Below are positions 2,122 through 57,376 of a stretch of 64,000 nucleotides of DNA, piece after piece (within the stretch, counting starts at the first letter, position 1; each line of letters opens with the position of its first letter). The stretch is taken from NCBI GenBank assembly GCA_947561395.2, contig OX387194.1, positions 14,432,048-14,496,047 of the forward strand, given 5' to 3'. Under the pieces are notes generated by a model. That model was not told the origin of the DNA, searched no databases, and was given only the letters and a program-made list of their open reading frames with translations. The translations under genes and the position numbers were made by a program. Source of the DNA: Buxus sempervirens (Eukaryota > Streptophyta > Magnoliopsida > Buxales > Buxaceae).

Positions 2122-3459
2122 GGAGGCCCCTCTTCAAGCAAATGGCCAAGAATTGGAGATTGAAGAGGTCCAAGTAAAGAAGGGAACCTCTGCTCCATTG
2201 CTTCCAGAACCCAGGTAAGCCTTAACCTTCTTTTACTTTTATGTTCTTAAATTCTAGAATTAGTCTCTTCTTCTTTCTTTCTGTAGAATAATGGTCTGAA
2301 TGTGTTTCGAACCCCATTCCCTACTCAAAGTACCTCAAGACTATCTTTAGTCGTAAAACGTGAAGAGAAATCTAGGGGAAACGAGAATGGGAATGGAACC
2401 TTAGTTCTAGAACCCTTTTAATGGCCTATTGTTGTGTGAAACCCCATTTCCTACTCAAAGTACCTCAAGATTATTTCTAGCCGTAAAAGGTGAAGAGAGA
2501 ACTAGGGGAAACGAGAATGGGAATGGAACCTTAGTGATTAGAACCCCCATTTGATTGATATGTTTTGAATGTTATATGTTGTAATGTGTTGGTTAATTTA
2601 AAGATATGATTTTTACACATGCACACATCGCACTCGTTTTGTCGAAATAGGCTTATATTTTGGATCTATCATACTCATTATGGTAGATCTGAAATGAATG
2701 GCCCCAAATATTTCTTGAACATTTCTGAATGGTTTTCAAATGAATACAAGCAAGTTTCTCCTTGGATATAGAAGACCCCTCGGTCTAATCTCTCTGTTTT
2801 GGGCATTTTTGCTCAATTTTGGGGGTTTTGGTATATTCTCTCCAATCAAAGAGAATGGTGAGCCAAATTCGTACCCTATTTCCTTCTTGAGGTTTTTCAA
2901 TACTTTTTCAAATGATTTTGGTTTGGATTGCATGGATTAAACACACTTGATCACTGTTTTGGGTTGATTTTACTTAAAAATGTCAAAACTAGACAGCATC
3001 TGTACCCTAACTTCGGACACTCATAACTTCATCATCCAGATGAATTTTGGAGTGATTTTAAAAACATGTGAAAGGTGAGACTATCTAGTTCTTGTCTGTA
3101 AAATTTCAGCCATTTTTATGAAGTGGATTTTTGACACCATTTGATCAAAGTTGAGAGGTCAGTTCAGGTTAGATTGCTGAACCTGTCATTTTGAATGAGC
3201 ACCATCTGCTCGTTTTAAGTCCGATTTGAGTGATTTTGATTTCTGTGTTTTCCTTTATGAGTATACTTTCAAATCCAATTAGTTTCAAAAATTTTTGATT
3301 TCATTTGTGCCTTGTGTGTCTGATTTACTCAAAACTGCCCTATAGCACAAGTTCGTGAGGTCGTACAAGTCACATCCGAATGAATTTAGGTGTAAGGCTT
3401 ATTTCATTTGAAAGATGGCACCATGTACTTCATTCTTCCAAATTTTCAAAGATTTATAT

Positions 3460-4739
3460 TGAAATAGTAGAGGACTACTCTTTAGGTCCACGATCAACAA
3501 CAATTCAGAATTTAACAATGCGGAAACATACACACAGAGAGAATTATACGAGGAAACCTGAATCCAGATCCAGGAAAAACCTCGAGTCTATATGAGGCGA
3601 CTAACCCTTCGAAATTCCACTATTGAATGAAAAGACAATTACAAAGGAGCGCATACTTAACCTTTACAATTGAACTCACTCAACAGCAAACCACAGTTCG
3701 AATCCACGAACTGCAACACAGCTTGAATCCACAAGCTGCAGAACACGATCAATCCAGATTGCAAACAATCACTCACCAGTGATCCACAGTTCAAATCCAC
3801 GAACTGCAACACAGCTTGAATCCACAAGCTGCAGAACACGATCAATCCAGATTGCAAACAATCACTCACCAGTGATCCACAGTTCGAATCCACGAACTGC
3901 AACACAGCTTGAATCCACAAGTTGCAGAACACGATCAATCCAGATCGCAACAATCACCTCAGAATCCACTGAGACGATCCAATGCAGTAGGAATCCACCT
4001 ACGCATCCAGCAAAGCCGATCACCAGTCCAGGCGATCACACGATCAGATGAAGTTCCGAATTGAAGAAGAATCCTCTACCTTCAATTCCAAGTGATCTAT
4101 CTCAGATCTCCCCCTCACTCGATCGCCGACTCTCTAAAGAATATTTGATCGAATCTCAAACACCTCAAGATCCGAAATCAAATTGATCCAAAGAAAAAGT
4201 CACTTCTAAAAATTATAGCACGTCTATTTAAAGGAGAAAACTCAGATCGCGTCGAGCGCTGGTGGCGTCGTGGTGCGATCGGGGTAGACGGCTGGAAGCG
4301 AACTCAAGTCCCGCTCAGAACAAGTTGAATCAGTTAAGGGCGCGCTGCCAACGAGCTGCTAGCGGGAGAGAACGCGGCATGTGCACAGCTGATCATATAA
4401 TCTTCAATCTCGCTCTGCGCTACCAGCGGCGTGTCGGCATCGCCTTACGACGCTAGTGCACGTGCCTTACTTTCAAAGCACTGATTCACTTATGCGCTGC
4501 CAGCGGAGTGGCAGCGGCATTGATCTTCGCAAGTGCCTTTACAAGAAATGCTCTATTTAGAAAATCTTTCATTTCCTTGAGCTACCAGCGGCGTGGTAGC
4601 TGTGTGGCAGCATCGTCTTCTTCTTCTTTACTAAATTCACTGAATTTTCATTATTTAATCTGCACATCTTGAAGATTTATGAGAAGACATAATTTGTCAA
4701 ACATTTGCCATAAAAGGAGTGTGAGTTTTCACACTTACA
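3460..4739 (-). repeat. Left LTR of the inverted-LTR element (1280 bp)
   Basis: On the minus strand it starts TGTAAGTGTGAAAAC at 4739 and ends ...CTACTATTTCA at 3460. The PPT complement is at 4740-4752. It contains three tandem 93-bp units (starts 3691, 3784, 3877), where the right LTR has two. That difference accounts for most of the 96-bp length difference between the LTRs. The short ORFs across this LTR are by-products of the 93-bp (31-codon) periodicity. Confidence 0.85.
3694..4037 (-). repeat. Twelve-hairpin array with constant loop, left LTR
   Basis: Plus-strand hairpins share the loop AATCCA (TGGATT in the LTR sense strand; AGTCCA in the last). The stems differ: CAGTTCG/CGAACTG (3694-3713), CAGCTTG/CAAGCTG (3719-3738), CGATC/GATTG (3746-3761), the same trio repeated twice to 3947, CTCAG/CTGAG (3958-3973), GTAGG/CCTAC (3987-4002) and GATCACC/GGCGATC (4018-4037). 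A few stems contain a single G-T pair or mismatch. Confidence 0.8.
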
Positions 4740-5118
4740 ATCTCCCCCTTGGCAAATTCCTGACAACAACCTTAAAACAGTGTTTAATATCAAACTTAGT
4801 TAATATTGATTTCCATTTAAGAATTTTAAAACCACACTGATAAGGAGAGACACAATGATTTTAGAGAATCCAGAATTTCATTCATTCAAAAGGATATACA
4901 TTGTTCCAACAGATATATACACAGTTATATACACATCCAACCAACCAACATAAAACTTCCCTTACAAACCCACAGAAAACTCCTCCATAAGCCAACTTTC
5001 AGAAACATAACAAATACACAACACATAGAGAAAGAAAGAAAGAAAAAAATAACAAGCAGCAAGCAGCAGCAGCAACCCAGCAGAACCATCAACAGAAACA
5101 TTAACCCCAGCAGCATCA

Positions 5119-6408
5119 TCATCCAAAAAACTCCCCCTTTCTGGAAGGTGGTTTGGGTTCCCAAGTCCTTGAGTAATGCTTGTATGCGTCTTGAGACCTG
5201 GAGTGCAGCCAACAGAGTTTGTGATCCATCTCCAGCTGAGTCTTCCGAATGCTTTCCAGAAAATGATCAGCTTCATTTTGCATTTGTTGCTGAGCAGCAA
5301 CATCCCTTTGTACCTCACCACAGGTAAAATCAACATCCTTTGCCAGTTTCTCCAGCTTCTCTTGGGTCTCTGATTTGAACATGCTCATCATGAGCATGTG
5401 AGCCCTAACTTCAGAATTGAAAGCCTCCTGGGAGGCTTGCATGGAATACAGTTTTTCCATAATTGCCACAGCATCAGAGCTGGACAAAGAGGACTGAGAA
5501 GAAGAGGGTTCAGAAGACACCAAACGAAAAGGATTTGCTCGTTTACTTCTAGTCAGGGTGGAGGAATCAATGGGAGGTCTGGGATGAAGGATCATTTCAG
5601 CAGGATCAGGGAGTACCCCCTGATGAATACACAGGTAAGTGATGAATATGCCAAAAGGAAGAGCAGCAGTCTTGGATTTTAAATTCCGAGACTGAAGGAT
5701 CTGATGGAATATGATGGAGGGAATACAGACACTGTCTTTGTTCCAGAGAGCATGAAGAAGTCTTGCTCTTGAGTGAGAAATCTCAGAATGGTGATCTGAG
5801 GGAACAAGAGAAGCACACACAAACAGATTCAAGATCCGGAGAAGATCTTGAAGAGAGCCATGAGGAAGGTAGTTGGGCTTGTTTTTGATGGAAGTAGGAG
5901 CACCCGGAACAATTAGAGAATGAATAATAGACTCCATCAAAGGATCAGTATGAGAATCAAGAAAGTTAAAGGAAGGAGAATCAACAAGGGGCAGTTCGAG
6001 AAGAGAGGAGATAATCTCTTTCGAGAAGTCAAAAGAGATACCCCTGACATATGCTTTGACATAGCCTTGATTGGCAAGATGAAGATTGTGAAGGTTCGAA
6101 TAAAATTCTCGGACCAAGTCCGGATATGCAAAACCATTGACCAAAGCAAATTTTGTCCAACCATTGTCCGAAAACAATGAGTAGAGAGGAGATTCAGAAA
6201 AAGACTCAAGCTTAATGGCCCTTTCCAACAGAAGTGGCCTATGCTTGAAGAACTCATTAAAATCAGAAAAACCATTACCAATGAATGGTTCAGAGGACTG
6301 AGAAGGGGATGGGGGTCTCACTGGAGGAGAAGAGATAACAGGAGAAGACCTCATAGGAGGAGAAGATGTGGAAGGAGAATCAGTCCTCGATTTTCTCTTG
6401 AGAGGCAT
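5119..6408 (-). CDS. Putative plant-transposon-domain protein carried by the inverted-LTR element
   Basis: An uninterrupted 429-residue frame starting MPLKRKSR. Residues 1-45 are Ser/Pro/Arg-rich and look disordered. Residues about 50-290 resemble the poorly characterised family often named 'putative plant transposon protein domain', with the pattern LVREFYSNL ... YVRGISFDFS ... LHALWNKDSVCIPSIIFHQI. Residues about 300-330 are Ser-rich. Residues about 340-410 are charged and probably coiled coil. No catalytic motif of a known transposase, reverse transcriptase or integrase is visible, so I give no enzymatic function. It has the same orientation as the left LTR and ends about 380 bp inside it. 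A TATA box lies about 300 bp upstream. A frame this long in an element lacking gag and pol suggests recent insertion or selection. The family call is from sequence pattern only. Confidence 0.6.
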   Translation of the reverse strand: MPLKRKSRTDSPSTSSPPMRSSPVISSPPVRPPSPSQSSEPFIGNGFSDFNEFFKHRPLLLERAIKLESFSESPLYSLFSDNGWTKFALVNGFAYPDLVREFYSNLHNLHLANQGYVKAYVRGISFDFSKEIISSLLELPLVDSPSFNFLDSHTDPLMESIIHSLIVPGAPTSIKNKPNYLPHGSLQDLLRILNLFVCASLVPSDHHSEISHSRARLLHALWNKDSVCIPSIIFHQILQSRNLKSKTAALPFGIFITYLCIHQGVLPDPAEMILHPRPPIDSSTLTRSKRANPFRLVSSEPSSSQSSLSSSDAVAIMEKLYSMQASQEAFNSEVRAHMLMMSMFKSETQEKLEKLAKDVDFTCGEVQRDVAAQQQMQNEADHFLESIRKTQLEMDHKLCWLHSRSQDAYKHYSRTWEPKPPSRKGEFFG

Positions 6409-6708
6409 GGTGAAGATTTAAAAAAATGAAAGAGAAAGAACAAACAGACAGAAACAAACAATGAACGATAAAGCCCTAATGGCAGAACAATCTACCAAAC
6501 CCTAGCTTAGAATAACGAGAGAAGACTACTGAACTAGGAAGCAGAAAATGAAGAAGCAAGATGAAGACAATAAAAAAATTTTACCTGAACAGTGAACAAG
6601 GTGGCGGAAAGAAGGCACGAAGGCAGAGAAAGATCACGACGCGAGGAGCGAGGTGAAAAGCAGAGAGGGTAAAAAACAGAGGTAAAAAAAAATGAACCAG
6701 ATTTCCCC

Positions 6709-6716
6709 TATTTATA
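6709..6716 (-). promoter_or_regulatory. TATA box upstream of the internal ORF
   Basis: On the minus strand the sequence is CCCTATAAATAGGGG, about 300 bp upstream of the ATG at 6408, followed by a T-rich leader. A CAG|GTAAAA donor-like site lies near 6584-6586 (minus), so the leader may be spliced. This suggests the ORF has its own promoter separate from the LTR. Confidence 0.5.
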
Positions 6717-7344
6717 GGGAAAAAGAATTCGCTGCTAGCGTGCATCCAGCGACGCTTACCACGGCAGGTGCCAAAGCACGAAATAGAGGAAAGGCTACCA
6801 GCACGCTTCTAGCGACGTAGAAGGTGCACATGCACACTCAGAAAGAAATACACTTATAAGGCAAAAATTTATCAAAAGAGTTTGAACTATTCTTCATGAA
6901 AAAAAATCATACTTCTAAATACAAAGCTAAGATTTTAACTAAACTAAAATCATCCAGATAATCAACTGTTATTCAATCCAAGAAGTACTTATTCACAAAA
7001 CTGATCTTAAGGAACCTATCGAGGTTAATTCAGATGTGACACATTTCATATCTATGACCAAAATTCCTTCATGGTTTCTCATACTATAAATTTTCTTCAA
7101 GATATTGAGCTCATATGCATATTAATTAGTCAATGTTTGTGTAGTGTGTGAAAAATATATATATATTTTTTTTGACTTTTACACTTTATACATATGGAAG
7201 GCTATTTTAGTGTAATCATACTTGGAAAGTATAGACATACTCCAACTTCATTTTGGTGGCTTTCGCACATCAAAGATATGTAGCCTTTTCTGATCTCTTT
7301 TTCTTTTCTTTTTGTAGAAGGCATTGACCATTAAAAAACCTGAG

Positions 7345-7482
7345 TTTACAATTCATTCAAAAAGAGTATACATTGTTCCAATAGATATATACACAGATAT
7401 ATACACATCCAACCAACCAATATAAAACTTCCCTTACAAACCCACAGAAAACTCCTCTACAAGCCAACTTTCAGAAACATAA
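7345..7482 (-). repeat. Local fold-back segment at the right-arm junction
   Basis: This segment matches 4873-5009 in the same orientation and is inverted relative to about 7622-7760 in the right arm. It is joined to the plus-oriented right arm at 7482-7485 with almost no intervening sequence (ACATAACAA then GAAAGGGGG). It marks the point where the sequence changes strand, as expected for a template switch or self-primed synthesis. Confidence 0.7.
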
Positions 7483-7889
7483 CAAGAAAGGGGGATTTTT
7501 TTGGATGATGATGCTGCTAGGGTTGATGTTTCTGTTGATGGTTCTGCTGGGTTGTTGCTGCTACTTGCTTCCTGCTTGCTGCTTGTTATTTTTTCTCTCT
7601 ATGTGTTGTGTATTTGTTATGTTTCTGAAAGTTGGCTTGTAGAGGAGTTTTCTGTGGGTTTGTAAGGGAAGTTTTATGTTGGTTGGTTGGATGTGTATAT
7701 ATCTGTGTATATATCTGTTGGAACAATGTATACTCTTTTTGAATGAATGAAATTCTGGATTCTCCACAATCATTGTGTTTCTCCTTATCAGTGTGGTTTT
7801 TAAAATTCTTAAATGGAAATCAAGATTAACTGAGTTTGATATTAAACACTGTTTTAAGGTTGTTGTCAGGCATTTGCCAAGGGGGAGAT

Positions 7890-9073
7890 TGTAAGTGTGA
7901 AAACTCACACTCCTTTTATGGCAAATGTTTGACAAATTATGTCTTCTAATAAATCTTCAAGATGTGCAAATTAAATAATGAAAATTCAGTGAATTTAGTA
8001 AAGAAGAAGAAGACGATGCTGCCACACAGCTACCACGCCGCTGGTAGCTCAAGGAAATGAAAGATTTTCTAAATAGAGCATTTCTTGTAAAGGCACTTGC
8101 GAAGATCAACGCCGCTGCCACTCCACTGGCAGCGCATAAGTGAATCAGTGCTTTGAAAGTAAGGCACGTGCACTAGCGTCGTAAGGCGACGCCGACACGC
8201 CGTTGGTAGCGCAGAGCGAGATTGAAGATTATATGATCAGCCGTGCACATGCCGCGTTCTCTCCCGCTAGCAGCTCGCTGGCAGCGCGCCCTTAACTGAT
8301 TCAACTTGTTCTGAGCGAGACTTGAGTTCGCTTCCAGCCGTCTACCCCGATCGCTTCACGACGCCACCAGCGCTCGACGCGATCTAAGTTTTCTCCTTTA
8401 AATAGACGTGTTGTAATTTTTAGAAAAGACTTTTTCTTTGGATCAATTTGATTTCGAATCTTGAGGTGTTTGAGATTCGATCAAATCTTCTTTAGAGAGT
8501 CGACGATCGAGTGAGGGGGAGATCTGAGATAGATCACCTGGAATTGAAGGTAGAGGATTCTTCTTCAATTCGGAACTTCATCTGATCGTGTGATCGCCTG
8601 GACTGGTGATCGGCTTTGTTGGATGCATAGGTGGATTCCTACTGCATTGGATCGTCTCAGTGGATTCTGAGGTGATTTTTGCGATCTGGATTGATCGTGT
8701 TCTGCAGCTTGTGGATTCAAGCTGTGTTGCAGTTCGTGGACTCGAACTGTGGATCACTATTGAGTGATTGTTTGCGATCTGGATTGATCGTGGTTTGCAG
8801 CTTGTGGATTCAAGCTGTGTTGCAGTTCGTGGATTCGAGCTGTGGATTGCTGTTGAGTGAGTTCAATTGTAAAGGTTAAGTATGTGCTCCTTTGTAATTG
8901 TCTTTTCATTCAATAGTGGAAATTCAAAGGGTTAGTCGCCTCGTATAGACTCGAGGTTTTTCCTGGATCTGGATTCAGGTTTCCTCGTATAATTCTCTGT
9001 ACATGTTTCCGCATTGTCAAATTCTGAATTGTTGTAGATCGTGGACCTATAGAGTAGTCCTCTACTCTTTCAT
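7890..9073 (+). repeat. Right LTR of the inverted-LTR element (1184 bp)
   Basis: It starts TGTAAGTGTGAAAAC after the PPT (7878-7889) and ends ...CTACTCTTTCA. It is very similar to the complement of 3460-4739, with scattered substitutions and one fewer 93-bp unit. A weak TATA-like TTTAAATAG lies near 8397. Sequence on its outer side resumes Tat LTR copy A at 9079. Confidence 0.85.
8592..8842 (+). repeat. Nine-hairpin array with constant TGGATT loop, right LTR
   Basis: Nine successive hairpins occur in about 250 bp: GATCGCC/GGTGATC (8592-8611, loop TGGACT), TAGG/CCTA (8628-8641), CTCAG/CTGAG (8656-8671), CGATC/GATCG (8682-8697), CAGCTTG/CAAGCTG (8705-8724), CAGTTCG/CGAACTG (8730-8749, loop TGGACT), then CGATC/GATCG (8775-8790), CAGCTTG/CAAGCTG (8798-8817) and CAGTTCG/CGAGCTG (8823-8842). 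Other loops are TGGATT. Order and orientation match the left LTR. Confidence 0.85.
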
Positions 9074-9765
9074 ATATGGAGCCAATTATCGCAAATAGGT
9101 TTGCAAAGTTGCCCAGTTGCCACTTTTATCAACTTATAACAGTGAATTTCAAACAAGCATAGCTCTTAGGATTTTAACCGGATCTACTTGAAAATTTTCC
9201 TAAGTCTTCTATTTATCATAATCTTTCAAATGGATTTCGTTTGATTCAATTTAAATTTGATTTGGATGATTTCAAGACAAATGGCTCCATCTTTTACCGA
9301 ATTTTCCGGATTTGTCTTAAATTGGTTGTGTTCAATTTTTGCTTTGATTTCCATTTAATAGTGATGTCCCAGAAGTGATACTTCCATAAAAGAAAGTCTA
9401 AGATTCATTGGACTTCTCATGTGGAGGGATCATACATGTGTTTAATCCTTTTCAAGCCTTTTTTATTATTTTCATTAGCAAGCTTTCTTTATTTTGAGCA
9501 TGAACAACACTTGGCAACCACCTTGTGTGGGTGAATGGGGGTGCCTAACACCTTCCCCCATTCATAATCTAATCCCCTTACGCATCTCTGGATTTTTATT
9601 TTTAAGTGGAATTCTTTTTAATCTGGATTTACCCTGTTGTGCTTATTTTGATGATTTTTGTGTCCATTCACACCCTAAAAAGAATGGTGGCGACTCTTCC
9701 CTTTTTTTCGAATCCCGTGTGATGACCGGAAAGTCACGAGATTGATTTTTCCCATGTCTCACAAC

Positions 9766-25179: not shown

Positions 25180-25650
25180 GAAGCCGAGTACATGGTCATC
25201 ATCTTATTGCGGGAGAACCCATCCAGTATAGTGATGAGTTGGCATGTACTAACCCAGTCACAGTCCGAGTACATGATAAAATAAGGGATAGCCGCAGCCA
25301 GCCGAGTACACGATCAGGCCTCACCGAGTACACGGTGGAAATGCGTGCATGAACAACATATTACAACTATCAAAGAAACAATCTATTCCACTACCTATCT
25401 CTTAACTTGACAAATGTGGATCCACACCGAGCTATGCCATCTAGACTTGAGCTAAAGCCAAACAGTAATCTTGATAATCTCAACTTGTTTCAAACTCATA
25501 CACATCATCCCGAGTACACGGGGCATCTCTGAGTACATAGAGGAAACACCATCCCAAGAACATGGGCATCCCCGAGTACACGAAGGTAAAATAACCATCA
25601 ATTCATCAAAAATCCCAAAACCATCCTCCAAGTACATGGAGAATTCCAAA
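25180..25650. repeat. Dispersed CCGAGTACACGG-type dyads
   Basis: At least six variants of CCGAGTACA(C/T)GG occur, a 12-mer matching its own complement at 10 positions. They are irregularly spaced in the 3' part of the LTR. Confidence 0.6.
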
Positions 25651-28889: not shown

Positions 28890-29920
28890 CGTTAGGTCTA
28901 GTAGGTTATGTTGACTTAATTCCGTGCCAAAAAGTGTGTTTAAGTGTATTTAGAATGTTTAGATTGAGTCCAAGAAGTCACAATTCAAACGGCTTCAAAA
29001 TTAGAGTTAGATTGAAGTTTTTATGCTTGGTGTTAGACAACGTTTGATCTAGAGTTCGAACAGTGGAATTAAAGCCTGTAGACAGTCAAACCCGAGAGTG
29101 GAGTTAGAGAACATTTGATCTAGCATTCGAATGGAAATTTCTGAAGAGTGTCGTTAGATAACGTTTGATCTAGCGTTCGAACGTTCAATTTCTGCAATTT
29201 CCGAAAAGGGTCACGAAAAGTTACATTACTTACTTGTTCCAATTCAGATTGACTTCAAACTTCTTGGGGAACTTTTAAATAGGATTAGGTTCCTTTTAAA
29301 CCTATAAGAGCCACGTTTTAGAAGCCCTAAACATCCTTTTTTCTTCTAGAAAAGCCTTTTCCTAGGTTTTCCCATTTTGAGCCATAAAACATTTCTATTC
29401 TTCTTTCTTCTTCTCCCATGGAGTTACGAGATGGGGAGATTGAATCGTGGGAGTTCCTACGAATACTAGGTGAGTTCGTGGGAGTTCCTACGTCCTTGGT
29501 GTTGCTGTGGAGCAAATCTGAGGAGTTCTTCAGATACTTTCAAGTCTGTGAGTTTCAGAGTCTAGAATAGGGATGTTGAATGGTTTGAACCACAGGTTGT
29601 AAGTCTTCTTCTCATAGTGGATGTTTTAGGTGGCTCTTGCATAGCCCAGAGAGTTTTTCTCATAGAGAGTTAGCTTTGAGTTTCCCCTTTGTCACCAAAT
29701 TGTTTTTGTCTTACTTTACATGCTTTAATTATTTACTTGCAATTTGGGTGGCTTGTTAAATACTTTTGATTGATTATTTGATTTTCTGCAATTACTTTGA
29801 GGATTTGTTCATTCCTATTAATTAAGGACTTGTCTTTAATTAATAGAAATTTTTTATTCCACTATGCTACACCTATTCACCCCTCTCTAGGTGTATTTGG
29901 AGTCTAAACTGTATTTTTCA
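28890..29920 (+). repeat. 5' LTR of the copia-like element (main part)
   Basis: It matches 37107-38109 closely throughout and ends ...TATTTTTCA, directly followed by the primer-binding site. The first five bases of the LTR are separated from it by the solo LTR at 24536-28889. Confidence 0.85.
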
Positions 29921-30966
29921 ATTAGTATCAGAGTAGTTTTACCAGTTCCTTGACTCCTTATGTCATTGACAAGTCTTCCACTGCCCCACCTTTCTTTGAT
30001 GGTAGTAATTGCGCCTATTGGCAGGTTCGTACGATAGCTTATCTAAAAGCCATTGATGAGAAGGTATGGGGATGTGTAGAAAGAGGTTGGAAACCTCCCA
30101 CTGTCACTGTCAATGATGTTATTACACCAAAGGATTCACAAAAGTGGACCAAAGAAGAGTTGATTGAAGAAAATTTTAATAGCAAGGGTGTCAATGCTAT
30201 TTTTAGTGCTATATTTGCTTATGAGTTTAAAAGGGTGTCCACGTGTCAATCTAGTAAAGAAATTTGGGATATCCTTGAAACCACTAATGAGGGAACTATT
30301 TTTGTGAAGAATTCCAAATTACAGATGTTGATAACTAGGTTTGAAGAACTTAAGATGCAAGAAGATGAGTCTTTTCATGAGTTCTATGCCAAATTGAATG
30401 ACATTGTCAACTCAAGCTTCAACCTAGGTGAGAAATTCCTCCAAATATAGTGGTTAGGAAAATTTTGAGATCTTTACTTGAGAAGTTTAGACCTAAGGTA
30501 ACAGCCATAGAAGAGAACTAAGACATTGACAATATTAGGATTGAAGACCTAATAGGATCAATTAGACCTATGAGCTCACCTTACCTCAAACCAAAAAGAG
30601 CAAATCTATTGCTCTTAGAGCCATGAAAGGAAAGACTTTTAATGAGTCTGATGATGAGGTCGATGATAAGGAGATTGCTCAATTTGTTAAGAGTCTTAGA
30701 AAAATTTTTAAAATTAGCAAAAACAAAAGGGGCAATGATTGGTCTAGGGGGACTTCTAGTAAGGATAGGAAATTTAAGAAAGAAGGTAGGGACAAAAGAT
30801 ACCCTTGAAAATAAAACTTAGCAAGTAAAGTGCCATGGTTGCCAAGGGTTTGGCCATATAAGAGCTGAATGTCCCACCTACAAGAAATTGAAAGGTAAGG
30901 GCAGTGGGAAAGCAATGAATGCTACCCTTTCTGATAGTGAAACTGAATCTGAGCCTGAGAATGATT

Positions 30967-33900
30967 TGTAAAACCCCGACCCGGATTGTATCTTAATTAC
31001 TAAGTTTAATTAATTAAAGTAAGATTATTAGACTAATTAAGCATTTGTGTTATGAAGGTGAGGTGGATGTGGATCATGCTTAAGGATTTGGGGGAAATCA
31101 AATTGGATTTTATTAAAGATTATTAAGGTAAGCTTAGTTAATGTTATGTTTTAATTTCAATTAGCTAAGATTACATCCAAGTAGTTTTAGTGAATTGGAA
31201 ATCAAATACTAAAAATTAGAGTTAAGTGTGAAAATTTGCCTTACCGTGAAAACTTTGAATTGTCTGTTGAACTAAATCTTGTAGAAACCCTTTGATAAAG
31301 TCTTAACGCCCGAACGTCCAACTTTAACGTTCACGCGTTCAGTACAAAATTTCCATATTTCTTGTTTTGAACCCCAACTCAATTTGCAACACTTCTAGAT
31401 CATTCTTGAACCCCAACTCAATTTGCAACACTTCTAGATCATTCTTGAACCCTCATTAACACCAATTTGAGCCAAGTATGCCTAGAGCACACCCCAAGTA
31501 AACCTAGTGTACACCCTCTCATGTATACCTCAAAGTATACCTAAGGTACCTGTCAAGTGTACTTAAAGTATCTCCTAAGAATACCCAAAGAACCTCTCAA
31601 GTATACCCAAAGTACCCTCACAAATAACACTAAATTACCCCCTTGTATTACCCAAGATACCCCACTTCTATACCTAAAGTACACCCAAGTATTACCCAAG
31701 GTACCCCCATTATATGCCCAAAGTACACCTATGTATTATCCAAGGTACCACCCAAGTACTACCTAAAATACCCTCCAATTATACCTAAGATACCTCACAT
31801 GTATACGTAAAGTACCCCCTTGTATTGACTAAAGTACCCCAGTTGTATACCTAAGGTACCCCTTGTTTTACTTAAAGTACCCTCTTTGTATAACTAAAGT
31901 ACCCCTCCCTTTTATAACTAAGGTACTCCCTTGTATAACTAAGATACACCCCTTCTATACCTAAGGTAATCCCCAAGCATCCCTAAAGTATACCCCTTGA
32001 AATAGCTAAGGAAAGCCCTTGGAACACCAAGGTACCCCCCCACTTATCACTAAGGTACCCCCTAGTATACCTTAGGTACATCCTAGGGTTTTAATTGAAT
32101 AAAAGCTTTGTTTAGGGCAGATTTGAAAAACCAAAAGTTGGGCATATAAAAGAATGCCCTAGCTAATATCTTAAGTGTTTTGAGAACCCTTCTTCCTGTA
32201 TTGGACGTATAGAACAAGGAGAAGAGTGGGAGCTTGCTTGAAAGCTTGAAGAAGAATGAGAAGAAGGAGAGGAGAGATTGAAGAGAAGTAAGCTTCTCCA
32301 TTAAACAAGTAGCAAACCCTTCAAAACAAAATTTATTACAAAAATTCGTATTCTCTTTATAGGGTTTGATTTATTTGAAGAAATAATCTTGCATGTTGGT
32401 TTATGCTTCTAAAATTTGTAGGATTTTGGTTGTATAACAATCTTGTTTAGTTTTCTATTGATTTGCCATGGATTTCCAACCTATATTGATCACATTTTAA
32501 ATTTGGGTTTGAGTTTGGTATTTTGAATGAGGTTTCTTTCGTGGATTTGTGTTCATGTGGATTTGGGATGAATCTTTGTTTTGGAAAGTGTTTTTAAGTA
32601 TGTTGGGATGATTTATGTTCATCTCATCTGCTGTTTGAAAGGTTACAAATGATTTGTATGAGTTTTGTGCTAAAAATAGCCAAAAAGATTTGAAAACCCG
32701 AGGTGGCGATTAATCCTGAAAATTGGCGATCCATCCTAAGCCAAAACCCCTAAAAATCAGTCTCTATTATCCTAATTGCAAATCAGGATTAGGTTTATTG
32801 CCCGAATCGCGAACCTGGACGCCCAAACATCTATGAGGAATAGGTTGAACGCCCGAACGTCCATAAGGACTAGGTTGACCGCCCAAACGTCAGCCCTGTT
32901 TTTGACAGTTCTTCACCCTTTTCTTCCTCCACTCTTTTCCATTTAATTAAGTCTTTACATGTAAATAAGTTTTTACCCCACATTTGGAACCAGTAAAAAT
33001 ACTCCCAATACCCATTTCCCAACCAATAAAAGTCAACTTTCCAATTCATGCCTAAATTTCCAGTTTTTGCCGATTTTCACCAAAAACCACATTTTGTGTT
33101 TGATACCCAAATGAGTGATTCAGAAGCCCATAAAATTCCAGAAAATTTTTCTACCCTTCATTAGACTACAACCAGAATTTGAGCCTGAAACTCCTTGTAT
33201 ATTTGTTTAGAAAAATCATATACCCAAAAAGTCAACGTTTTTAACTAGACTTGGAATATTTTCAAGGTCGAAAACTTTTTGTCTCTGAATCCATTGATTT
33301 TTGGTATGGTGATTTTATTGGGAATCGCACTCATCGAATATGTATTTTGAGGATTTTATGGTATTCGTTTTGTTTGATTTGGATTTATGAAAGCAAGGCT
33401 GAAAAACTCTTATGTGATTTGAAAAGGGCTCTTTGCCTATGGTTTTATTGGCGATCGATGGGGAATTCCACTTAGCTTATGATATGATTTGGCGGTAGAT
33501 AGGGAATTCCACTTGGCCTTGGTTTAAGTATATACTAGTTTTACTCACTGATGTGAATGGTTTGGTTTTGAATTGTGAGTCATCTAATTAGACGTTGTTC
33601 TTAGTTTGGATCCACAATGAGTCTAGTCTTTGTGTTGGTGTTGGCTTGGCTTGTTAGCATTAATGCCCTTGTTCATATAGCCTTCTCCACTGTGGGGAAT
33701 CAATGAGGCTCTCTCGGGGAACAGAGGCGCTGCGGCAACACCCCCCACCCCCCCTCCCCCCCCACCGCCATGGGGAATTGGCAAGAGTCCTTGTGATTCA
33801 TCAAGTAGTGGATGGGGAATTCCACTTGACCTTGATCCTTGGTTTGGTTGTTCTTGCCAGCCCATACGTGGGTGCTTCTCTTGCTGAGATGTCCCTAGCT

Positions 33901-34684
33901 ATGCTTCTCTCTATAAGTCATGTAGGTGGCAAATGGATAGTGGTCATTAATATAATTGAGAGACACACTAACCCACTAGTCCTACCAAGACATGCTTGCA
34001 GTATTTGATTGCATTTATTGATTTGATTTCATATGTTACCCGATTGAGATATTTGACTTGGAATTACACTTTATTTCCGATTGAGTTGTTTTGGTTTACA
34101 TTTGGTACTTTATATTTGAGTAAGTTATCATGATGTTATAAAATTGCATAAATTGTTTCTATACATGTATGTTTGCTGCTTACTGGGACTTCAAGTCTCA
34201 CGCGTGTTTTGTTTTATCGGATTTGTTTTCGAATCCTCTTGGTGAGCCGCATACTGGGGCAGAGATTGAGGGTGAGCTTGAGTACAGAACTGAGGACTAC
34301 TACTACCACCCATAATAGGATTCTCTTTATGATGATGTATTTAATTTTGGGGAATTGCAAATGGGATGTAAATATCCTTTTTGGACTTATACTCTTAAGA
34401 GATATCTTTTGTATATGTTTGTGTATTTTGGGAGAGAACTTGTGAACATTTAGTTGACTGAATTGTATTTTGTTCACATAGATATCATATCTTTTGGAGT
34501 TATTACACAGATGATCTTTTATTATATGGAAAACTTTATTCCATGCTTCTTTAGCTTATGCACTTTGATGATACTTCGTAATTGCCTAGGTTAATTGTAT
34601 TTATTAGATTCTTTTGGGCCCATAAGTAAGTTTCGGGAACGGGTTGGTGCCGTGATAGGCCAGACCCAGTTCTGGGGCTCTACA
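30967..34684 (+). mobile_element. Solo gypsy LTR nested in copia gag (3718 bp)
   Basis: It starts TGTAAAACCCCGACC, ends TTCTGGGGCTCTACA, and has a perfect target duplication TGATT (30962-30966 and 34685-34689). The TATA box CATATAAAAG is near 32142. Bases 32930-33330 match 55430-55800 of the solo LTR at 54541-57376, so the two are one family. Upstream of the TATA box is an irregular AAGTACCCC-type minisatellite (31480-32080). Repeated GGGGAATTCCACTTG motifs lie near 33463, 33507 and 33817, with degenerate copies between. Confidence 0.88.
31480..32080 (+). repeat. Irregular minisatellite of AAGTACCCC / AAGGTACCCC units
   Basis: About 600 bp of imperfect 20-30 bp units of the form TAT(A)CCTAAGGTACCCC with variants such as TATTACCCAAGGTACCCCC. 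The unit contains the palindrome GGTACC. It lies in the U3 of the solo LTR, ending about 60 bp before its TATA box. Confidence 0.8.
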
Positions 34685-35542
34685 TGATTCCTCATCTGAA
34701 GAGGGCCAAAATTACATGGCTTTCACTTCTATTGTAGGAAGTGAAGAGGGAAACACTCTTCAAGACTCAAAACCACTTGAGAATGATAATGGTTCTCAAA
34801 GTGAGTTTGAAGATGAGGAGAGCCTTGAAGAGACTTATGAGAAGCTTTTTAATGAAAGCTTGAAAATAAAGAAACAAAACAAGGCCTTTCTTAGAAAGCT
34901 CAATGAAGTAGAACTTGTTAAGGAAGAACTTCAAATTAAATTGGATGAGTCTACTTCTCATGTGGGTGAGTTGAAGTTGAAAATTGAAACCCTTGAGTCT
35001 AGAAACAAGTCATTCAAATCTGAATTAGAGAAGTCCAAATCTCACTTGCAAAACTTCTCTTCTGGTTCTCAAAAGCTTGATCATATGCTTGGTATGAGTC
35101 AAACAGTGTCTCATAAGAGAGGGTTAGGATTCCAAGATGTTCCTTCCTCTTCAAAGACTTATTCTTCTTCTAAAAGCAAGAAGAAATCTGGTGTGTCAAA
35201 GGGAAAGACCAAAAAGGCCGCAAAAAGGCCTACCCAACAGTTCAAAAGGTGTCAACTTAAGGCATTTCTTCCTAGGGAAACTCCATTTCGGAAATTCATT
35301 CCTACTTGTCACCACTGTGGTGTTCTAGGTCACATAAAACCTAATTGCTGGAGATTAGGAGAAAATCTTAGTCAATCTTGGTATTTTCCTCCTAGAAAAT
35401 CCAATGTAGATTTATCTAATCAAGTCAAGGTCTTAGCTCAACAAACTAGGCTCCTTTCTGAACAATTAGTTTCCTTGACCAAGAAATCCTCTTCTACCTG
35501 ACAAGTTTGGGTGAAGAAGAGTGATTTCAATCCTCTTCCTTG

Positions 35543-37101
35543 AGTAGGATTAGGGTTGCATGCATTAGCCTTGCTTCATACTTATCTTATCTTTTGCATG
35601 CATGTTTTTTTTATTTTTCTGGTTTTTGGTTTTTGTTTTGTTGTTTTTGGTTTAAATTTTTTTTCAGAAAAAATACAAAAAGATTTTCTATTTTTTTTTT
35701 GTTTTTGATGATTTGTGTTATGAGCATGTTTTGTGAAAACAATTAATTTTTATATTGAAAAAACTCATTGCTTGAAAGGATTGTTTTGCAAAACTTGTCC
35801 CAATTGCATCATATAAATGCACAATAGATTGATTGAAATCTTTGTGTTTTTGCAATTAACACTCACACCCCAAATAAAATTTGAGAATGCTTAATCATAT
35901 AAATATGTGAATGTGTGGATAGGCAATCATGGGTTTGCTCTTGTCAATCTTAAGTTAAATTGACCCAAGGTTAGTGACCTGGACCATACTCTCTTGTATG
36001 TCAAAAATTAAAAACAAAAATTATGAATGGAAAAACTTGGGATGAGTTGTATGGTCCATGGATTAAACTGTAAACCCAGGTATTCTAAGGTTAAATACTT
36101 CTTATGAGAGATTAGATTATAAAAATAAAAAATAAAAAAACAGGGGGAGTGCGTCCATTAAAACAGAAAATTTAGGTCCTAATCAATTTATGGGGTTTGA
36201 CTTTTAACTCAAAGAGAGACTTGAGTATAACTTGTGGTTTCATGTAAAAGCCAAATCCACATCACCAAGTTCCAATTTAGGCAAACTTAATTGTGTCTGG
36301 TTTTGCACTTGCTCGCAAGCACACTTAGTGATTTGATTGAATTATTGTGAAGTTATTTGGCATTTTTGACTTGAGTTTTGTTAAAACTTGATTTTTGGGT
36401 GAAAAAGTTCTCAAAAATATGAAAATTTTGAGTTTTCATGAAATTATACTTGTGGCATGTTTCATCATATTTTTAAAGTCTTTTTAGAATGTGTTTGAAG
36501 TGTTTTGTGTGAGAAAATCTGGATTTTAGAACAGTTCGCTCTAAAACTAATTGATTTTGAATTCTCCGTGGAAACTAATGATTCATGCCTCTCTTTGAAT
36601 TTTTTTCCATTTAATCATGCATATTGCCCATCTTCCTTCTAAGGAGCTCATTGATTTGTTTTTCTTATATACTTTTCTCTTTGGTCTATTCCATGACAAA
36701 AAGGGGGAGTAGTTTATGGGGAGATAGACTTAGGGTGAGATAGATTTAGATTTCAGATTTTATTTCATTATATGAGATGCAACTTATTGATGCTCATGTG
36801 ATTATTGTAATCATTGTTTTGAACTTGGACATATTGGACTATTGGAAATATATATTGTGCTAATATTGTCCATTTACTTGTGTTTTTACATTATTTTTTC
36901 CCTTTCTTTTCACAAGGTATGTTTCAGTTTGTTTCATAGGAACATATTCCCATTCAAGTAGTGTCTGTCTAGATTAGGCTGGATAGGATTTTATTTGAAT
37001 TTGTAAAGTCCAGATGTTGCTTAGTGGTTCACAACATCTTGGAATGTTAATTTTTTTTTTGTCTTTAATGGTTTTGTCACGGAATAGTCAAAGGGGGAGA
37101 T
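35543..37101 (+). other. Non-coding remainder of the copia-like element
   Basis: This is the interval between gag and the 3' LTR where protease, integrase and RT would normally lie. No domain is recognisable in any frame. It is T-rich and ends with the PPT AAAGGGGGAGA at 37090-37100. Confidence 0.7.
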
Positions 37102-38109
37102 TTTTAGGTCTAGTATGTTATGTTGGCTTAATTCCATGCCAAAAAATGTGTTTAGAATGTTTAGATTCAGTCCAAGAAGTCACGGTTCAAATGGCGTCAA
37201 AATCAGAGTTAAATTGAAGTTTTTATGCTTGGCGTTAGACAACGTTTCATCTAGCGTTCGAACGGTGGAATTAAAGCCTGCAGACAGTCAAACTCGAGAG
37301 TGGCGTTAGAGAACGTTTGATCTGGCGTTCGAATGTTCAATTTCTGCAATTTCCAAAAAGTCACGAAAAATTACATAACTTACTCGTTTCAATTCGGATT
37401 GACTTCAAACTTCTTGGGGAACTTTTAAATAGGATTAAGGTCCTTCTAAACCTATAAGAGCCACGTTTTAGAAGCCCTAAACATCCTTTTTTCTTTTGGA
37501 AAAGCCTTCTACTAGGTTTTCCCATTTTGAGCCATAAAACCTTTCTATTCTTCTTTCTTCTTCTGCCTTGGATTTCCGGGATGGAGATATTGAATTGTGG
37601 GAGTTCCTACGGATACTAGGCGAGTTCATTTAGGTGATCGTTCGAGAAGATCTTTAGAGTTTCGAGGTGTTGCTGTGGAGCAAATCTAAGGAGTTCTTTA
37701 GATACTTTCAAGTCTGTAAGTTGTAGAGTCTAGCATAGGGATGTTGAATTGTTTGAACTACAGGTTATAAGTCTTCTTCTCATAGTGGATCTTTTATTTG
37801 GCTCCTGCATTGCCCGGAGGGTTTTTCTTAGAGAGAGTTCTCTTTGAGTTTTCCCTTCGTCACCAAATTGCTTTGGTTTTACTTTACATGCTTTAATTAT
37901 TTACTTGCAATTTGGGTGGCTTGTTAATTACTTTTGATTGATTATATGATTTTCTAGAATTACTTTGAGGATTTGTTCATTCCTATTAATTAAGGACTTG
38001 CCTTTAATTAATAAAAAAAGTTTATTCAGCTGTATTACACCTATTCACACCCCCCCCCCCCCCCCCCCCGCTAGGTGTATTTCGAGTCGAGTCTAAATCG
38101 TAATTTTCA
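37102..38109 (+). repeat. 3' LTR of the copia-like element (1008 bp)
   Basis: It follows the PPT. The expected TG start is TT here (37102-37103). It ends ...TAATTTTCA and is followed by the target duplication ACTTC. A C-rich string near the end has expanded to about 20 C (38050-38069); the 5' LTR has only a short C-rich run there. Confidence 0.85.
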
Positions 38110-54540: not shown

Positions 54541-57376
54541 TGTAAAACCCCGAATTTTCCCAAATATTAAAATAAAATAACAATTAATATTCTTTAGGAT
54601 TACTATGGATGGAAATAATTTATTATTGTAGAGAATATCATTATTAGTGAAGATAAGGAGTTTGGCGCAGATCGGAGCGTCTGATCGCGGTAAGATTAAT
54701 ATTTTAAAGCTAAAGTATTTTGATTGGGCGATGTGCATTGAGTTTGTTGTGTGTGCGTTGCGTGGGATAGAAGGTATATATATATATATGCTAAAATAAC
54801 CTAAACGAATAAGTTGGGAAGACTTGCTCGTATTCGTTAGCCGCACGACGGAGAGCGGCGGTAAGAACGACCAAAGAAGAAGGAGGAAGAGGTTGGTCTG
54901 GTTTTCTTCATCCCAAAGGAGTGCTTTTGAGTCTGAGTGTTGCTGTTTAGAGAAGGAAGAGGAGAGCACACGTTCAAGAGGTAGGTAGCACCGATTTTCG
55001 TTTTGTTTTGTGTTCTGGAGGTTAATCGATTGTATTGCATGTTTTAGTGTTAGATATACATGTATTTAGCTTGATATCATTCATATAATTATGTTAGAAT
55101 CATCCTGGACATGAAAAATCAGATTTCTAAACATTGTATGTTCGTTTTTGGGAGACCGCCTACCTCTCTGCGCTCGGCGATCCTCGGCGCTAGTTATAAA
55201 AATTGAGGACGCCGGAGACCGCGGGACGACGGACCGCGGGCGACCTATTTTGTACTACCGCTGACCTTTGACCGCCTAGGCGATCCTGAGCGATCCTAGG
55301 CGCTCTAGCAAAAAAATGCAATTTCGACAGTTTTTCATCCCCTTTTCTTCTCCAACCCTTTCCCAGACAACCCAAGCCTCTCACATAGCACCCTTATTAC
55401 ATGAAAGACATTTAAGTAAATGTCCTGTGTATTTATTGCTCCATTTACTTAAGTCTTTATATGTAAATAAGGTTTTACCCCCCATTTGGAATCAATAAAA
55501 ATACTTCCAAGGTCTAATTCCCAGCCAATAAAAAGTCAACTTTCCAGTTCATGCCTAAATCCCGGTTTTTATCAAAAAGCCCGGTTTGGGTTTAATACCC
55601 AGATGAGTGATTCAGGAGCCCATAAAATTGTAGGAGATGTGTTTACCCTTCAATAGACTACAACCAAAATTTGAGCTTGAAACTCCTTGTCGATTTGTCT
55701 AGAAAAATTATATACCAAAAGTCAGCGTTTTTAACTAGACTTATAATATTTTTGGGGTCCGAAACTTTTTGTCTCAGAATTGATTGATTATTGGTATGGT
55801 GACCTTATTAGGGATCCTAAGACTATTCCACTCATCCAAAATGTATTTTGAGAACTTTATGACATTCATAGTCCCTAAATCATTATAAAATAGGGTATTT
55901 GGATTTCCACCCCTTGTAACACTTCTCTAAGATTATTCTTAAGGTGTCCCTGAAGTCCAATTACACTAAAAAGTTTATACTAGATATTTAACTACCTTGT
56001 TTTATGATTTAGTACAATTTGGGGTTTAAAGAGGATCAAATTCACTTGAAATGGTTACAAGGATTCTATATAGGTAATTTCCTTCAGAAAATATAATTGG
56101 ACCATTGACCGAATGCCATGATGGCTATAAGAGATTGTACCATCTGCGGATGAGATATGTGACCACCTGCGGGTGAGATGACCACCTGCGGGTGAGATGA
56201 GACCTCCTGTTGGGGGAGATGTGATCCTGATTGGATTGCATCCCACAGGGGAGAGACCACCTACGGGTGAGATGACCTCCTGCGGGAGAGATGAGACCTC
56301 CTGTTGGGGGAGATGTGATCCTGATTGGATTGCATCCCATAGGGGAGAGACCACCTGCGGGTGAGATGACCTCCTGCGGGAGAGATGAGACCTCCTGTTG
56401 GGGGAGATGTGATCCTGATTGGATTGCATCCCACAGGGGAGAGACCACCTGCGGGTGAGATGAGACCTCCTGTTGGGGGAGATGTGATCCTGATTGGATT
56501 GCATCCCACAGGGGAGATATGTGACCTCCTGCGGGAGAGATGTGACCTCTTGTGGGGGAGATGTAATCACGATGTGATTGCATCCCACAAGGGAGATATA
56601 TGTGATTAACATCTGCGGGTGAGATGTGACCACCTGCGGGTGAGATATGATGACTCCTGCGGGAGAGACCTCATGTAGGGTAGATGTGATTACTGCGTGA
56701 TTGCATCCTACATGGGAGAATGTTGTTATCAGATTGAGACTTACTATTAATTATGAATGACATGATCTACATTTGAATCAGAAGAGTTTGATTTATATTA
56801 CATTGCCTTTCTAATTGAAACGAAGGTTACATAATAAACTCTCTTTATTCCAAACACTGATTAGATGTTGGTTTCCTGTGGTGATTAATCGTTCTTATTA
56901 TCGACCGCGACTACCTGATTATTTTATCGTGCATGAATGATTACTTTTATATATAAACTGTTTCTAGCATGCATGTGTTACCTACTGAGATAGTTGTATC
57001 TCACCCCTACTTCATATTCTACTTTTCAGGTTATCTTGGAGAGGATGCGACGGGTTAGACAGATAGTGGGTTGAAGTCTAGAAATTCCATATGAAAAGAG
57101 TAGGGTGATTTTATATAGCTGTATTTATTTTAGTGGAATCGTCATAGATGATTTTGTAGGATATTAAGAGTTAGTTAAATTTGTAGTTGCCTTTCATTTG
57201 ATTAGTTAATGTAATCGGATGACTCAGCTTCTAATAAATGATTTAAGCTTCCTAGTACTCTGATAAATCTTAGTTCTTTATTTCCTTATATTTGAACTGA
57301 TTGTAATGTACCACAAGTTAATGCCTTGATCCGAGTCAAAATGAGAAAAAAAAGAGACCCGGATTCGGGGCGTTAC
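54541..57376 (+). mobile_element. Solo gypsy LTR (2836 bp) inside Tat element C
   Basis: It starts TGTAAAACCCCGAATTTT, ends TTCGGGGCGTTACA, and has a perfect target duplication CCATG before and after. A TATA-like run lies near 54777. Bases 55430-55800 match 32930-33330, so it is the same family as the solo LTR at 30967-34684. It contains a hairpin-rich minisatellite at 56150-56720. It falls in the inferred first intron of the antisense gene. Confidence 0.9.
56150..56720. repeat. Hairpin minisatellite in the solo LTR
   Basis: Short units alternate CTCC-TGCG-GGAG and CACC-TGCG-GGTG (same four-base loop, different stems) with TCCC-ACAG-GGGA-type units and GATGTGATCCTGATTGGATT. A higher-order block of about 110-120 bp recurs about four times between 56190 and 56520. 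The long overlapping minus-strand frames here are by-products. Confidence 0.8.

Follow-up and report, generated by a model that had tools for sequence, protein, structure and literature searches.

Packaging signals made up of many sites with a common recognition motif are described for single-stranded RNA viruses, in work on MS2, satellite tobacco necrosis virus and the hepatitis B virus core (PMC6281560; PMC7612645, PMC3593212), and multiple nucleocapsid (NC) sites are reported in the 5′ leader of human immunodeficiency virus type 1 (HIV-1; PMC7395439). In plants, the barley retrotransposon BARE2, which cannot produce a Gag of its own, reportedly retains dimerization and packaging signals (PMC3735527), and tandem repeats are described in the U3 region of tobacco Tnt1 (PMC3601003). 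Here we analyze a 64,000-nucleotide stretch of Buxus sempervirens (contig OX387194.1, 14432048-14496047, labelled C21), referred to below as the window, in which an insertion derived from a Ty1/copia long terminal repeat (LTR) retrotransposon carries two arrays of hairpins with different stems and a six-base loop, TGGATT or TGGACT; the genome comprises 677 Mb. We propose, with a probability of about 0.45, that these arrays form hairpins in the sense-strand RNA that are maintained as a series of binding sites for a protein, the most likely being Gag during packaging.

The arrays are like dispersed viral packaging signals in combining a common loop motif with variable stems; however, those signals are spread over a genome, whereas the hairpins described here stand in tandem in one leader and have a nearly invariant loop. 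Like the psi and NC sites of the HIV-1 leader they would form multiple sites in leader RNA before gag (PMC7395439), but a repeated array of an invariant loop is not described in the cited part of that account, and Gag is a putative ligand of our array. With BARE1 and BARE2 they share a plant copia setting, where packaging and dimerization signals are reported (PMC3735527) and the array is a candidate for one; the cited BARE1/BARE2 text does not use the term 'hairpin' (0 occurrences), a comparison of wording and not of sequences. Tnt1, as far as the cited text goes, resembles our element in having tandem repeats within a copia LTR (PMC3601003), but its repeats lie in U3, while the hairpins start downstream of a TATA-like box, by 194 nt in the TGGATT family and 171 nt in a second, GAGTTC family, and thus outside the place of a U3 enhancer. 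We found no description of constant-loop hairpin arrays in our searches of open-licence full texts, and an earlier description elsewhere is possible.

Hairpin arrays in an insertion with inverted LTRs

The insertion occupies positions 3460-9072 of the window, with no strand assigned, and is flanked by a 5-bp target repeat, TATAT, at 3455-3459 and 9073-9077. Its LTRs were delimited by comparison with a copy on C9, in which LTRs of about 1.26 kb run from TGTAAG to CTTTCA between flanking ATAAG repeats; the left LTR lies at 3460-4739 on the minus strand, with its U5 end outermost, and the right LTR at 7890-9072 on the plus strand. The two arms are 96% complementary and therefore inverted, whereas the LTRs of an ordinary element repeat in the same direction, and both outer ends of the insertion are U5 ends (TG..CA). 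BLAST against the C9 copy showed that the 3′ part of the element is present in both orientations. The arrangement resembles the integration of a palindromic or self-rearranged cDNA.

In the C9 copy the primer site, TTGGTATCA, starts one base past the LTR, and the coding region specifies a copia gag with a CCHC zinc knuckle, integrase and RVT_2. With a copia gag, integrase before RVT_2, TG..CA LTRs and a 5-bp target duplication (ATAAG), the host element is, by its sequence features, a member of a Ty1/copia LTR retrotransposon family.

The left array (3690-4038, minus strand) holds 12 hairpins with the loop TGGATT or TGGACT, and the right array (8591-8845, plus strand) holds nine, together with one hairpin that has another loop (GATCACT-ATTG-AGTGATT). 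These counts confirm the preliminary description of the locus, which had reported constant-loop hairpins with differing stems in both LTRs; both do hold arrays, although as inverted and not direct repeats. The pairing is imperfect in places: one of the nine right hairpins has only 4 contiguous pairs, and on the left, mismatches leave two with only 3 and one with 4. The stems are of the types TGATCGCC, (G)TAGG, GATCGTCTCAG, TGCGATC, TGCAGCTTG and TTGCAGTTCG, each with its partner, and the neighboring stems CAGCTTG/CAAGCTG and CAGTTCG/CGAACTG differ at two pairs, with both sides changed in each. A 93-bp unit is tandemly duplicated within the array, in three copies on the left and two on the right. 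Because part of the array is this tandem duplication, the 21 hairpins represent about six different stem types; the earlier argument that different stems cannot come from simple duplication therefore holds only in part.

A TATA-like motif, TTTAAATAG, was seen at 8397-8405 (plus strand), 194 nt before the first right-arm hairpin, and the structured leader from this box to the end of the LTR is about 680 nt long. As it lies downstream of the box and upstream of the primer site, the TGGATT array is probably in the RNA leader (R-U5). A psi-type structure and a leader position both fit the array, with the transcription start placed from the TATA-like box alone.

Chance expectation and RNA folding

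On their commonest loop, the right and left arms carry 4 and 5 distinct stems of at least 5 bp when G-U pairs are allowed, and 0 of 1000 dinucleotide shuffles per arm match these counts, whether G-U pairs are allowed or only Watson-Crick pairs. Total hairpin counts, irrespective of loop, stand out less once G-U is allowed: 12 on the right (shuffle mean 4.9, maximum 13) and 15 on the left (mean 6.7, maximum 17), raised values that one or more shuffles nevertheless reach. Restricting the count to Watson-Crick pairs gives 7 (shuffle maximum 3) and 9 (maximum 4). The predicted RNA fold of each arm is much more stable than those of shuffled sequences (z −5.4 for each arm; 0 of 200 and 0 of 100 shuffles as stable). 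The shuffle comparison and the fold of the LTR RNA, both suggested in the preliminary description, thus speak for the array. Strong folding of a leader of this length would also be expected if the array shaped the leader for translation or reverse transcription, through ribosome shunting, pausing or control of strand transfer, with the loops incidental; we regard this as unlikely, since it leaves identical loops on different stems unexplained.

A scan of the window for hexaloops borne on three or more distinct stems inside 500 nt picked out TGGATT, AGTACA and GAGTTC and their reverse complements, and none appeared when the window was shuffled 20 times; for loops of 4, 5 and 8 nt the window also gave a few three-stem clusters, a count made without shuffle comparison. 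Genome-wide, pairs of GTGGATTC spaced 8-38 nt apart number 6660, against 91 for the reversed pattern, where one copy may give several matches and other families contribute. A triple pattern, TGGAYTN{12,40}TGGAYTN{12,40}TGGAYT, was discarded as a 22-bp satellite dominated the matches listed. A 22-bp satellite (TGGACTTGTAA..GGCATGGT) forms two arms of opposite orientation that meet at a centre, at C1:6192674-6193473 and C1:8914918-8915759. Scans of IMG/VR with the array pattern and with a piece of pol found no relatives, and a search of window positions 3400-9100 against Rfam gave two matches below the gathering score, neither inside a TGGATT array.

A related copia lineage with a different loop

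A second copia element lies at 29145-38052 (plus strand; outer ends of the matched LTR parts, which are 88% identical), with a gag-like open reading frame (ORF) at 29926-30450. Its LTRs carry hairpins with the loop GAGTTC, at 29445-29535 on the left (three with at least 5 pairs) and 37595-37703 on the right (two with at least 5 pairs), both on the plus strand. These hairpins, four in most copies, stand at the corresponding place in the LTR and start 171 nt past a TATA-like motif in both LTRs of the window. Because the gag sequences of the GAGTTC and TGGATT elements are 56% identical over 138 residues (and 36% over a further 156), the two are, on protein similarity, related copia lineages with different loops. 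The spacing of three GAGTTC loops is matched 1772 times in the genome, against 432 in the control.

Two alignments of GAGTTC sequences were examined. A2 contains 10 sequences (the range of one, L120, set by hand); A3 contains 29, of which 20 were picked by a pattern demanding three exact GAGTTC, so that loop conservation is taken from A2, and it excludes window positions 29426-29575, which are rearranged. In A2, 96.9% of cells are paired, and the covariation score of 0.306 exceeds the shuffle mean of 0.233 (0 of 500 shuffles as high) and the maximum of 0.106 with slid partners; columns below 90% identity number 0 of 24 in the loops and 21 of 52 in the stems. In A3, 97.1% of cells are paired, with a score of 0.274 against 0.200 in shuffles (0 of 500) and a maximum of 0.088 with slid partners, and there are 53 cells with double changes, which count sequences and not events, against 23.6 in shuffles (0 of 500).

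Counted as events in A3, two GAGTTC subfamilies differ at eight stem pairs, and all eight (8/8) remain paired. Four of these are double changes (G-C/A-U, A-U/C-G, A-U/U-A and A-U/G-C), of which one falls in a small hairpin with another loop (columns 85-90) and one hangs on the placement of a one-base bulge (columns 26-46). The four GAGTTC hexaloops do not differ between the subfamilies. A small tetraloop hairpin lies between the third and fourth GAGTTC hairpins (columns 81-94), in which A-U becomes U-A between the subfamilies and the loop is also changed.

For the TGGATT family, alignment A1 covers six hairpins in 51 of 52 available copies (27 from the similarity ranking, 22 from the pattern list and two from the window, with the range of L053 set by hand); L064 was dropped as its hairpin 3 was not found, and L001, the window's own copy, was unused. 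Here 98.0% of cells are paired, compared with 30-48% when partners are slid. The covariation test is weak in this family because the copies are too similar, with a mean column identity of 95%; the alignment test proposed at the outset therefore gave little for the TGGATT family and compensatory changes for the GAGTTC family. The constant feature in the TGGATT family is the loop across the hairpins of an array. A second TGGATT subfamily has different outer pairs and a 69-nt repeat in place of the 93, and between the subfamily majorities five stem pairs differ, of which four remain paired and one (GT to TT) breaks.

Fixed and private changes in the stems

Over both families, pairing is kept in 12 of 13 fixed stem differences, whereas among private changes it is kept in 27 of 62 (Fisher p = 0.0016 overall, 0.013 for A3 and 0.14 for A1 taken separately); the changes are not fully independent, and 2 of the 51 A1 rows belong to neither subfamily. 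Such a contrast would be expected if selection acted until an element inserted and its copies then decayed neutrally. Together with the compensatory changes in the GAGTTC family, it supports the earlier suggestion that a single-stranded nucleic acid structure is maintained.

The same data bear on whether the stems could match without selection. Template switching in quasi-palindromes may copy one arm onto the other, and palindrome correction is an established process; tandem duplication, evident in the 93-bp units, would then multiply the products. We consider this origin very unlikely, as private changes are mostly uncorrected, 35 of the 62 disrupting the pair, as eight pairs have fixed G-U states where copying would yield Watson-Crick pairs, and as it does not predict that loops stay invariant.

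Where a fixed difference is one-sided and the pair is retained, the path leads via G-U in eight pairs and via A-C in none, in stems that were traced through G-U and not A-C pairs. Because the states are G-U rather than A-C, the maintained structure would lie on the LTR-sense strand, to which this asymmetry points. A role of the hairpins as palindromic sites in DNA, for a transcription factor or methylation, would require no such asymmetry, and, even with the tracing bias, it counts against that role, as do the position of the array downstream of the TATA-like box and the differing stems, in which no common DNA motif is apparent by eye. What speaks for DNA-level sites is the third hexaloop of the window, AGTACA, whose units in other elements are often limited to stems of 3 bp flanking a core that is nearly palindromic. 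On balance we judge this the least likely of the explanations considered.

The AGTACA hairpins lie at 25321-25641 (plus strand) on four distinct stems (TCACCG, TCCCG, TCTCTG and CTCCA), and relatives have TCACTG/CAGTGG beside TCACCG/CGGTGG. The pattern CCGAGTACACGG..GAGTACA has 1129 genome matches and 0 in the reversed control. Folded over its whole length, the region is no more stable than expected (z 0.29; matched by 58 of 100 shuffles), and 8 of the 12 loci fetched, some of them overlapping, have no stem longer than 3 bp.

Arrays in other leaders and in a Ty3/gypsy lineage

The primer site TTGGTATCAGAGC has 1019 matches in the genome. From the first 100 listed, all on contig C1, 40 leaders of up to 600 nt upstream were taken by hand; four sites that fell within TGGATT copies known beforehand were passed over, and the remaining entries were simply not used. 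At least two hairpins with distinct stems and a shared hexaloop occur in 16 of the 40, compared with a mean of 0.43 and a maximum of 3 in 200 shuffled sets. BLAST linkage groups the leaders into 18 clusters, and arrays are found in three: 8 of 9 leaders in a copia GAGTTC cluster, 7 of 7 in a TGGATT cluster, and the single sequence L115. Loops of length 4 gave 11 leaders (shuffle mean 3.0, maximum 8), lengths 5 and 7 gave 0 each, and length 8 gave 8 (mean 0.05); the matches at lengths 4 and 8 are presumably, for the most part, hexaloop hairpins counted one pair deeper or shallower.

L115 belongs to a different lineage. The coding part of this copy is Ty3/gypsy, with RVT_1, RT_RNaseH, integrase and a zinc knuckle, and with its relative L082 it has the hairpins CCTTG-TGGATT-CAAGG (TAAGG in L115) and GCTGG-TGGATT-CCAGT and a third, AGGATTAA-CGGAGA-TTAATCCT (CGAAGA in L082). 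The hairpins of L115 lie no more than about 90 nt from the primer site, nearer than the copia arrays, and their pattern has 174 matches genome-wide and 0 in the control. The predicted fold of one decayed gypsy copy, L083, does not contain every one of the three hairpins. TGGATT hairpins also occur in another LTR, in L084, where the downstream sequence reads by eye like a non-LTR (LINE-type) reverse transcriptase.

A loop common to a copia lineage and a Ty3/gypsy family, and located in each upstream of the primer site within the LTR, could be read by a host RNA-binding protein or an RNase III-like enzyme, acting in export, stability, localization or host control, with repetition raising avidity. 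The GAGTTC loop adds to this, for in predicted folds of 4 of 4 copies GAGUUC forms one further G-C pair and so leaves a tetraloop, AGUU, and AGNN tetraloops are read by yeast Rnt1. Because the gypsy family has the TGGATT loop, we place a host protein second among the candidate readers and treat it as the main rival, though a rather improbable one: a single reader leaves the different loops of two related copia lineages unexplained, and elements would be expected to lose sites for a harmful host enzyme.

Further features of the insertion and the window

On the minus strand of the insertion, a 429-residue ORF at 5119-6408 matches Pfam Transposase_32 (PF20167; 'putative plant transposon protein'). 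The corresponding stretch in the C9 copy, with frames judged by eye and located by BLAST, is a broken match between the reverse-transcriptase frame and the 3′ LTR; this domain is apparently carried by a copia retrotransposon (window 5119-6408; L010 2270-3566). The plant transposon domain and the plant-type genes of the window are in keeping with a plant genome. A short derivative, L011 (C4:43142000-43146900), has LTR arrays 3.3 kb apart and a gag frame, with no pol among its ORFs of at least 100 residues, and is possibly a non-autonomous relative keeping the arrays. Diverged tandem arrays lie elsewhere in the window, at 31526-32079 (period about 22 bp) and 56131-56668 (about 19-94 bp).

Discussion

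In the mechanism we propose, the leader RNA would be transcribed as placed above and would carry the array in R-U5. A protein would read the constant loop, while the stems would merely present it, and repetition of the hairpins would give many binding sites. The most likely reader would be the Gag encoded by the element itself, through its nucleocapsid (zinc-knuckle) part, and the array would then serve as a multivalent packaging signal. We hold Gag packaging to be the most likely function because of the position of the array, its multiplicity and the lineage-specific loops of related copia elements; a reader encoded by the element itself would explain why the loop differs between the two copia families. 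A CCHC zinc knuckle is present in the gag of a TGGATT copia copy and in gypsy copies with the TGGATT loop. In one copy, TGGATT is concentrated in the LTR and not dispersed: it occurs 10 times in the LTR and leader and five times in the remaining two pieces (one of these still in the LTR; 8.2 kb), a count of TGGATT alone that, for those pieces, disregards stems. Protein binding and packaging are inferred from sequence, and the hairpins are candidate sites.

Several results weigh against this proposal. No such array was found in 15 of the 18 leader clusters, so LTR elements do not in general require one. In A1 a double change occurs at one pair only, with a score of 0.055 that 91 of 500 shuffles reach (maximum with slid partners 0.045), and the loops are no better conserved than the stems (columns below 90% identity, 3 of 36 versus 7 of 104). 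Two of the five covariation measures are unexceptional in the GAGTTC sets: the number of pairs with a double change is as high in 32 of 500 (A2) and 200 of 500 (A3) shuffles, and that of further pair types in 499 and 456 of 500. The strand argument is biased by the tracing of stems through G-U and not A-C pairs, and the ratio of G-U to A-C is much less one-sided among variants in more than two copies (9 to 3) and private changes (25 to 21). The TGGATT loop shared by gypsy and copia elements favors a common reader or convergence, which weakens a purely element-specific Gag code, and the TGGATT and GAGTTC loops need not be read alike, given the AGUU tetraloop predicted for the latter.

Dimerization through self-kissing loops, which had been offered as a further function, is not favored for TGGATT: by eye the loop cannot pair with itself, and in the one LTR and leader examined there is no AATCCA, the sequence complementary to it, although the remaining two pieces of that copy have one each. 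No partner for a kissing-loop dimerization initiation site was thus found in that leader. For GAGTTC, self-pairing with G-U is conceivable.

To our knowledge, the RNA feature that plant retrotransposons use for packaging is poorly understood, and a constant loop on covarying stems is a compact and testable candidate for such a signal. Beyond this, we tentatively suggest, as a possibility less probable than binding and packaging as such, that the loop is an address, in which a lineage-specific invariant loop (UGGAUU, GAGUUC and perhaps AGUACA) is read by a matching protein while the stems drift under pairing. If this were true, loop switching would mark changes of partner between lineages, and an element sharing a loop would mobilize parasitic derivatives, even across copia and gypsy. 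The array signature may offer a way to predict which elements mobilize which parasites, and it provides a simple search signature for other genomes.

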